DNA of 41,040 nucleotides from a bacterium (GTDB lineage: Bacteria; Bacteroidota; Rhodothermia; Balneolales; M1805), in contig SBGQ01000077.1 in the NCBI GenBank assembly GCA_006226965.1, positions 1-41,040 of the forward strand, given 5' to 3'. The number at the start of each line of letters is the position of its first letter. The first letter of the stretch is position 1. The notes under the pieces are model-generated. The model was not told the DNA's origin, searched no databases, and saw only the letters and a program-made list of their open reading frames with translations. The translations under genes and the position numbers were made by a program. Below are positions 16,535 through 17,847 of the stretch, in pieces.

Positions 16535-16933
16535 TTATTTTACTTGTTGAATCCAGTCAGGAAGATTGTAATAGTTGGTAATGCGAGTAATTTTTCCGTC
16601 TTTGATTTCAAAAAAGGCTCCCGCAGGTAATAAATAGGTTTGTCCATTTGCTTCAGGCAAACCTTCATCAGTTTTTAAATACGTTCCATACACTTTGAAT
16701 TCAGCCGCTGCACGTGTGCCTGATTCGTTGTACATCACAACAATATCAGCCAATTGTTCTTTGTACGATGTGTTCATTTTATCCATAAACTGGATGAAAG
16801 CCGTTTTTCCGACTTCTCTTTTGCCTTGATTGATATCGTGAATAACGTGAGTGTCTAACATGGAATAAAAGGTTTCCATATCGCCTTTGTTGAAAGCATC
16901 GTAGTATCGGGATATAATATCAGTTTGAGACAT
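16535..16933 (-). CDS. SnoaL-like (NTF2-fold) protein
   Basis: The 132-residue protein has a single SnoaL/ketosteroid-isomerase-like domain: IISRYYDAFNKGDMETFYSML at the start, GKTAFIQFMDKMN, and terminal strands with ITRITNYYNLPDWIQQV. This fold includes isomerases, cyclases and ligand-binding proteins, so the reaction is open. It is the first gene of a two-gene unit with the acyl-CoA ligase, suggesting a shared small-molecule pathway. A candidate -7 element, TATCTTTC, lies about 45-55 bp upstream on the minus strand. Confidence 0.8.
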   Translation of the reverse strand: MSQTDIISRYYDAFNKGDMETFYSMLDTHVIHDINQGKREVGKTAFIQFMDKMNTSYKEQLADIVVMYNESGTRAAAEFKVYGTYLKTDEGLPEANGQTYLLPAGAFFEIKDGKITRITNYYNLPDWIQQVK

Positions 16934-17038
16934 GGTGAATGTGATGTTTAAAGTTTAAATGTAATGCTTATAAATAGTGCGCGGAAAGATAATAAAACTG
17001 CTTAATATAATGCAGAAAAGCGCTTACAGGATGGAGAT

Positions 17039-17216
17039 AAAAAAGCTGCGAGAACATCGATATGTGCATTGACTCATATCAAGAAAATGCGGGTAACTGC
17101 CTGTGAAACGCTGACTTCCTTCAATCCGAAGATAAGGCCTGCCATTGTAGTACAGAGTCAGAATCCCTGGAATTTTATAATTATCGACAATGACGATTCC
17201 AAAATGCTCCCGCAGC
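17039..17216 (-). ncRNA. ssrS: candidate 6S RNA
   Basis: About 175 nt on the minus strand fold like 6S RNA, which binds the sigma70-type RNA polymerase holoenzyme. A 12-bp closing stem joins 17205-17216 (GCTGCGGGAGCA) to 17045-17056 (TGTTCTCGCAGC), with all positions paired including two G-U, and six T follow. Inside are a UGGAAU/AUUCCA hairpin on the 5' side and a terminal arm closed by CUGACU/AGUCAG with a UUCG-capped stem. A GAUAUG/CAUAUC hairpin sits on the 3' side of the bubble. It lies 88 bp after zapA, the classical neighbour of ssrS in Proteobacteria. A 64-codon frame from a TTG crosses it but looks accidental. Confidence 0.6.
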
Positions 17217-17226
17217 AATATCGGGG

Positions 17227-17256
17227 AAAAAAAGACTTACAGGAGAACTGCAAGTC
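17227..17256 (-). terminator. intrinsic terminator downstream of zapA
   Basis: On the minus strand, the stem GACTTGCAG / CTGTAAGTC (9 pairs, one G-U) with loop TTCTC is followed by seven T. It ends only 10 bp before the 6S candidate. The 6S promoter must therefore overlap this hairpin, or read-through is processed. A second small hairpin (AGCAC-GAAA-GTGCT) precedes it. Confidence 0.85.
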
Positions 17257-17303
17257 TTAATTATATTCAAAGAACGAAAGCACTTTCGTGCTCATCCTGC
17301 TGG

Positions 17304-17609
17304 TTAAATATCGGAATTTGCGGACTTAATGTCAGCTAAAAGTTTTTGCAATCGCTGTTGAATCTGAGATTGGTCGCCGGATTCTGTTTTTGGTTTTCTT
17401 TTTTCCAGATACAAATCTTCAGCAATACTCAAAGCGGCTAAAGCTGTAATAGTCGATTCCGGTTGCCCTTGTAATTCTTTTCTGAAATCACTGAATCGGG
17501 TATTTACAAAATCAGCAATTTCTTCCATGATTCGCTCTTCGCCTGACGGAACTTTCAACTGATACGCCTTACCAAGAACATTCACTTTAATTGAAATCAT
17601 TTCAGCCAT
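17304..17609 (-). CDS. zapA: cell division protein ZapA
   Basis: The 101-residue protein matches ZapA, which bundles FtsZ filaments at mid-cell. The N-terminal domain has ISIKVNVLGKAYQLKVP and EERIMEEIADFVNTRF, and a helical C-terminal part follows (STITALAALSIAEDLYLEKR). The start overlaps the end of the upstream coiled-coil gene by 8 bp (17602-17609), indicating coupled translation. It is the last protein gene of the pheST unit and is followed by a terminator and the 6S RNA candidate. Confidence 0.88.
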   Translation of the reverse strand: MAEMISIKVNVLGKAYQLKVPSGEERIMEEIADFVNTRFSDFRKELQGQPESTITALAALSIAEDLYLEKRKPKTESGDQSQIQQRLQKLLADIKSANSDI

Positions 17610-17847
17610 TTAATTTCTCCAAATGTTGATCAACTTTGTGAATCATCTGATTTACCTTTGCTTTAAGAGCGATTTTATCAGGTAAAGAAAGTTCACCGAA
17701 TAAATCAGATTGTGCTTGTTTCGGCTTCTCTAAAAGCTGGGCTTTTAAACTGGCATTTTCTTTTTTTAAAGAAGAAATGTGTTGGAGCAAGCGATGAATT
17801 TCTTGCTCCAGCTCGTTTAATAAGGGGTTAATAACTTGTTCACTCAT
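17602..17847 (-). CDS. coiled-coil protein preceding ZapA
   Basis: This 81-residue protein is mostly coiled coil (NELEQEIHRLLQHISSLKKENASLKAQLLEK), followed by a short segment SDLFGELSLPDKIALKAKV. It overlaps zapA by 8 bp. Size, coiled coil and position recall ZapB, the ZapA partner in E. coli, but the sequence alone does not prove homology. It may be a ZapA-associated division factor. It lies 69 bp after pheT on the same strand. Confidence 0.7.
   Translation of the reverse strand: MSEQVINPLLNELEQEIHRLLQHISSLKKENASLKAQLLEKPKQAQSDLFGELSLPDKIALKAKVNQMIHKVDQHLEKLNG

Follow-up and report, generated by a model that had tools for sequence, protein, structure and literature searches.

6S RNA is a small RNA that holds RNA polymerase back in slow growth. 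In Escherichia coli and Bacillus it imitates an open promoter, captures housekeeping RNA polymerase and is released again when the polymerase synthesizes a product RNA. The gene order around it in E. coli is zapA-ssrS-fau, where zapA is a cell-division gene. For beta- and gamma-Proteobacteria the order ZapB-ZapA-SsrS has been reported (PMC7641849). Bacteroides thetaiotaomicron reportedly has a 6S RNA together with product RNAs (PMC7366714), an expressed 6S RNA is listed for Flavobacterium psychrophilum (PMC9723704), and the 6S-Flavo family goes back to Weinberg et al., 2010 (PMC2864571). A search of the open-access literature found no description of a zapA-6S order in Bacteroidota.

The window analysed here is the whole stretch of positions 1 to 41,040 of contig SBGQ01000077.1 (GenBank assembly GCA_006226965.1), and the region of interest is 17039-17303 on the minus strand. 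The nearest named PheS matches are from Balneolaceae/Balneola. An earlier note, made from the sequence, had pointed to a candidate 6S RNA next to zapA in this region. Our best explanation, to which we give a probability of about 0.87, is that 17039-17219 (minus strand) is an ssrS-type gene encoding the divergent 6S RNA of this Balneolales bacterium.

Two covariance models were used in the comparison. R1 was built from alignment A1, which holds 23 RNAs of Balneolales relatives, and R2 is a second model with other Rhodothermia added; the window was excluded from both. Like 6S/SsrS (RF00013, E. coli ssrS), the window RNA is about 180 nt long, has a closing stem, a bubble and a long terminal arm and lies directly after zapA, and the RNAs of its relatives align end to end with RF00013. 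It differs in that RF00013 misses the window copy and scores the relatives under its cut-off, while R1 and R2 both fail to find E. coli ssrS. 6S-Flavo (RF01685) also lies directly after zapA and is touched weakly by R2, but the window sequence is very different from it. Bacteroidales-1 (RF01693) overlaps with 6S-Flavo as a model, and R2 finds two of its sub-threshold loci; in contrast to the window RNA, its loci over the cut-off have no adjoining zapA.

Direct Rfam searches

A search of the whole window at the Rfam gathering cut-offs reached no family. RF00013 (gathering threshold 46.4 bits), RF01685 (85 bits) and RF01693 (60 bits) were absent among the matches of the region at E values up to 10, so the check with these models that had been proposed for the region came out negative. 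The window's own genome contains no RF00013 match, no RF01685 match at E ≤ 0.001 and no RF01693 match at E ≤ 0.01. Relaxed Rfam matches in the region (eukaryotic families and an RNase P fragment) were put down to chance. Taken alone, the direct Rfam evidence is such that the 6S claim would fail.

The RNA gene and its neighbours

The features of the locus are listed in Table 1. The RNA gene proper occupies 17039-17219, and 17220-17303 is the 3' flank of zapA including the hairpin. The predicted fold of the RNA runs from 17218 to the T run, and between closing stem and terminal arm it shows a bubble with one hairpin per side.

Table 1. Features at the zapA-RNA locus of the window.
Feature	Position	Strand	Evidence
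6S-like RNA gene, about 180 nt	17039..17219	-	R1 and R2 matches
Closing stem, 5' strand (14 pairs)	17203..17216	-	fold; helix-length comparison
Closing stem, 3' strand	17045..17058	-	fold; helix-length comparison
Terminal arm (GGG...CCC), UUCG loop 17127-17130	17091..17167	-	fold; consensus pairs kept
CGAU, 5' side of bubble	17183..17186	-	RF00013 alignment of a relative and R1 alignment
T run (TTTTTT) right behind closing stem, intrinsic-terminator-like 3' end	17039..17044	-	sequence, fold
Terminator-like hairpin between zapA and RNA (11 pairs, then T run)	17232..17258	-
zapA	17304..17609	-	PF05164, 58.9 bits, E 6.4e-16
zapB-like gene upstream of zapA	17602..17847	-	PF06005, E 6e-4, below the Pfam cut-off

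Most of what the earlier note had read from the letters was found again: the bubble with its two hairpins, the terminal arm with the UUCG loop, the final T run and, upstream of the RNA, the terminator-like hairpin behind zapA. Its closing stem is present too, with 14 pairs instead of 12. The longest uninterrupted helix at this position is 14 in the window; pairing the window's 5' end with 3' ends taken from six other RNAs gives 5 to 7. The long hairpin with closing stem, bubble and terminal arm, i.e., a 6S-type shape, is found in the fold and in the covariation described below.

The fold energy of 17039-17303 gave a z score of -3.58 with 0 of 200 shuffles as good, for a stretch that includes the zapA hairpin; the RNA alone gave z = -2.85 (1 of 200 shuffles as good). 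Fold energy by itself is thus moderately unusual at most, and the covariance model of the relatives is the stronger support. In the window, an alternative pairing of CAUUG (17192-17188) with CAAUG (17071-17067) is possible in the bubble. The relatives suggest such an inner bubble stem, which would compete with the two bubble hairpins.

The gap between zapA and the RNA is longer in the window than in the relatives and holds the terminator-like hairpin. Since the RNAs of the 23 A1 relatives start -7 to +35 nt from the zapA stop codon, the additional hairpin is regarded as a trait of the window's lineage. A sigma-70 promoter scan gave four matches (5.2 expected), none of them positioned to start the RNA. 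The RNA may have its own promoter across the zapA hairpin, an overlap that the earlier note took to be required, or it may arise by read-through and processing.

Open reading frames do exist across the RNA (a 64-codon TTG frame at 17024-17218 and one of 63 codons on the other strand), which could be taken for a small protein gene. The frames have no Pfam match, the best tblastn match among the fetched loci (E 0.05) is unconvincing and falls in an unrelated locus, and the RNAs of the relatives, 163 to 229 nt long, carry stops in nearly all frames. We give a coding function next to no chance.

Downstream of the RNA (16535-16933, minus strand) the window carries a SnoaL-like gene and then an AMP-binding (acyl-CoA synthetase-like) gene, at the place where relatives have ymdB.

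A zapA-linked RNA family in Balneolales

In the following, f2, f3, f4 and f5 are labels for other Balneolales families, L numbers denote loci and G numbers genomes. A DNA search with the RNA region in 59 genomes matched the own genome alone. Conservation at the DNA level was too low, and relatives were therefore approached through the neighbouring zapA; ZapA was found in 59/59 searched genomes of the order. In f2, f4 and f5, a non-coding gap with an RNA comes after the zapA stop, and behind it lies a YmdB-like frame (PF13277 and TIGR00282 in one tested locus, the others judged alike by eye).

The 23 gap RNAs of A1 come from f2, f4 and f5. Left out, besides the window's own L001/L002, were the duplicate L035, the truncated L008, the repeat loci L132-L136, the Ignavibacteria locus L065 and all loci without a gap RNA (f3 loci L013, L017-L023, L025, L027-L031 and L121-L131; others L033 and L034). 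The terminal arm of A1 has 22 consensus pairs with 96.6% of cells paired, and 12 of these pairs show two-sided changes (61 cells). The covariation score was matched by 0/500 shuffles, and slid versions of the arm drop to 34 to 55% paired. A larger alignment of 33 chosen loci (A3), which was fitted to the model, gave two-sided changes in 14 of the 22 arm pairs (123 cells). The compensatory changes that the earlier note had asked for in relatives are thus clearly present.

Because stem length differs from family to family and the alignment program displaces the stem, closing stems were compared by helix length per sequence. Several relatives have stems of 6 to 9 pairs, which is within chance (shuffled ends reach 8 pairs in 9% of trials), so that good support for the closing stem is limited to the window (14 pairs) and the longer ones.

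R1 matched the window at exactly 17039-17219 with 46.2 bits (E 2.6e-7), end to end over model positions 1-183; the runner-up in the window scored 14.7 bits, and the window RNA is the single match at E ≤ 10 in its own 3.78 Mb genome. R2 scored 44.6 bits at the same RNA (E 1.7e-8) and 20.2 bits at the next best place in that genome. With this full-length match directly after zapA, the window RNA is a member of the zapA-linked Balneolales RNA family. Fold and an independent model of relatives together bear out the structured RNA that had been proposed after zapA on the minus strand. Across the order, R1 matched 33 of 128 genomes, namely the window's own and 32 of the 35 listed f2, f4 and f5 genomes; the three genomes of these families without a match (G028, G040 and G047) are 73 to 84% complete. 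R2 found the same 33 genomes. Across the class, R1 matched 50/244 genomes at E ≤ 0.5.

The window RNA is 40 to 57% identical to its Balneolales relatives. It keeps 16 of the 22 consensus arm pairs, five of them by two-sided change, and breaks six; sliding the arm gives 6 to 11. One could read this as a degenerate 6S gene that has lost its function in the window's lineage: the window scores 46 bits versus 109 to 188 bits in f2, f4 and f5, two helix segments are broken, and there is the additional terminator-like hairpin upstream. Against decay, the RNA retains an uninterrupted 14-pair closing stem, the T run and the five compensated pairs. Moreover, no other genome of its family is among those listed, so divergence is expected. 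We consider loss of function improbable and prefer a divergent 6S RNA gene.

Relation of the family to 6S RNA

When 14 loci were compared by cmscan with all 4227 Rfam families, RF00013 was the best family at the gap for L024, L026 and L014 (31.5, 30.8 and 27.3 bits; E 0.011, 0.017 and 0.11), each over model positions 1-187. It was again the best family in two of 18 further loci, L170 and L172 (36.7 and 31.2 bits; E 0.00053 and 0.011; model 1-187). Matches to RF00013 at E ≤ 1 were found in just 3/14 and 2/18 loci of the two sets. In 128 genomes of the order, RF00013 had five matches at E ≤ 0.1, all directly after zapA by coordinates. The scores of the relatives range from 25.9 to 36.7 bits, all under the 46.4-bit cut-off. 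R2 reaches beyond the order to Ignavibacteria and weakly to 6S-Flavo and Bacteroidales-1 loci (E 0.011 to 0.62). Among E. coli, 6S-Flavo and Bacteroidales-1 loci, R1 gave a weak Stygiobacter match alone (E 0.38).

There is thus a structured RNA, a zapA-linked family to which it belongs with strong compensatory change, and a match of that family to RF00013. The homology of the window RNA to known 6S RNAs runs through its relatives only, by way of R1 and R2 and then of RF00013 below its cut-off. The lack of a direct 6S match in the window and the sub-threshold Rfam matches of the relatives would also fit an unrelated conserved small RNA, or a 3'-UTR element of zapA, that resembles 6S RNA in shape by chance. 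Such a coincidence is very unlikely in our judgement, as RF00013 matched end to end five times in 128 genomes, each time at this one locus, and R2 extends, though weakly, to the 6S-Flavo and Bacteroidales-1 loci. An RNA of 6S shape that binds core polymerase without sigma factor, as the actinobacterial Ms1 does, or a different RNA that binds polymerase would look similar; Ms1 is reported to be related to 6S RNA in structure and to be bound to core polymerase, and structure alone cannot separate the two. This has an equally slim chance, given that RF00013 is the best Rfam family of the relatives and that product RNAs are reported with the Bacteroides 6S RNA (PMC7366714). A 6S-type RNA beside zapA, as the earlier note had it, is the best-supported reading through the covariation and the RF00013 matches at the orthologous gap of relatives.

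Predicted function

The most likely role of the window RNA is that of a 6S RNA, with mimicry of an open promoter and sequestration of the housekeeping RNA polymerase. The RNA would be transcribed alone or processed out of the zapA transcript and would fold into a long hairpin whose bubble imitates an open promoter. It would then capture polymerase carrying the housekeeping sigma factor, and transcription would be lowered once nutrients run out. Release would occur as the polymerase transcribes the 5' side of the bubble into a short product RNA. The U of CGAU (17183) falls in the column of E. coli U44, via the RF00013 alignment of L024 and the R1 alignment; U44 is the product-RNA start in E. 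coli. If that start is conserved, the predicted product RNA would have its first nucleotide opposite U17183 and the sequence 5'-AUCGACAAUGACGAUUCC (complement of 17200-17183). CGAU is present in f4 and the window but absent in f2, and because of this absence the product RNA is put forward as a hypothesis. The placement of CGAU in the U44 column is suggestive of a product-RNA template.

Gene order of zapA and 6S RNA across groups

Weaker R1 matches led to 18 loci (17 from other families of the class and one from f5), with zapA upstream in all except L181. The downstream frame is rny-like in most of them by eye, and RNase Y was confirmed in L173. Among 10 further loci, zapA is present in nine; L153 (G016) has none within its short stretch, and the zapA of G016 is on another contig.

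In a sample of the phylum, 6S-Flavo matched 36/296 genomes, 12 of them over the cut-off. zapA, identified with a profile of the ZapA set gathered in this analysis (used for 6S-Flavo and Bacteroidales-1 loci alike), ends just upstream in all 12 of the 6S-Flavo loci read, which belong to Flavobacteriia; rny lies downstream in both loci tested (L188 and L194). The zapA linkage noted in this genome therefore recurs in its phylum. Bacteroidales-1 loci have zapA upstream in four of eight cases, and those four genomes match 6S-Flavo at the same place: in L188-L191 (G253, G315, G284 and G437) the two models overlap, so they describe related RNAs. No zapA adjoins L186 and L187, the Bacteroidales-1 loci over the cut-off. 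R2 found the 6S-Flavo locus L205 at E 0.18 and the places L190 and L191, in RF01685-matching genomes, at E 0.21 and 0.62. On an Ignavibacteria contig (L065, Stygiobacter), zapA is followed by an R2 match (E 4.2e-6) and then by a frame that is rny-like by eye.

The genomes of f3 (e.g., G002 and G017) have no R1 or R2 match anywhere. In the f3 loci read (e.g., L030 and L031) the next frame, ymdB or another gene, lies 10 to 159 nt behind zapA, and no RNA was seen there. Their 6S RNA may have been lost, moved or changed beyond recognition. With neither a gap nor a recognisable 6S RNA, f3 is a natural experiment for the linkage of zapA and 6S RNA.

The recurrence of the zapA-6S order over Bacteroidota and Ignavibacteria is a more interesting point than the window RNA itself. 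Its presence in Rhodothermia, in Flavobacteriia and on one Ignavibacteria contig makes it testable whether division and global transcription control share a link that is old or was favoured repeatedly. At somewhat less than even odds, the pairing could predate the split of Bacteroidota/Ignavibacteria from Proteobacteria and have been kept by selection, which would tie zapA, and in this phylum also its RNA-decay neighbours rny and ymdB, to an RNA that slows transcription. The 6S RNA of Balneolales and several other Rhodothermia families goes unannotated because it scores below the Rfam cut-offs.

Two sub-threshold Bacteroidales-1 matches away from zapA, L192 and L193, were also found by R2 (E 0.011 and 0.049) and are probably 6S RNAs at another place. 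In G016, the RNA lies at or near the ends of both contigs C38 and C69 (L008 and L153), as if the assembly break falls inside the RNA.
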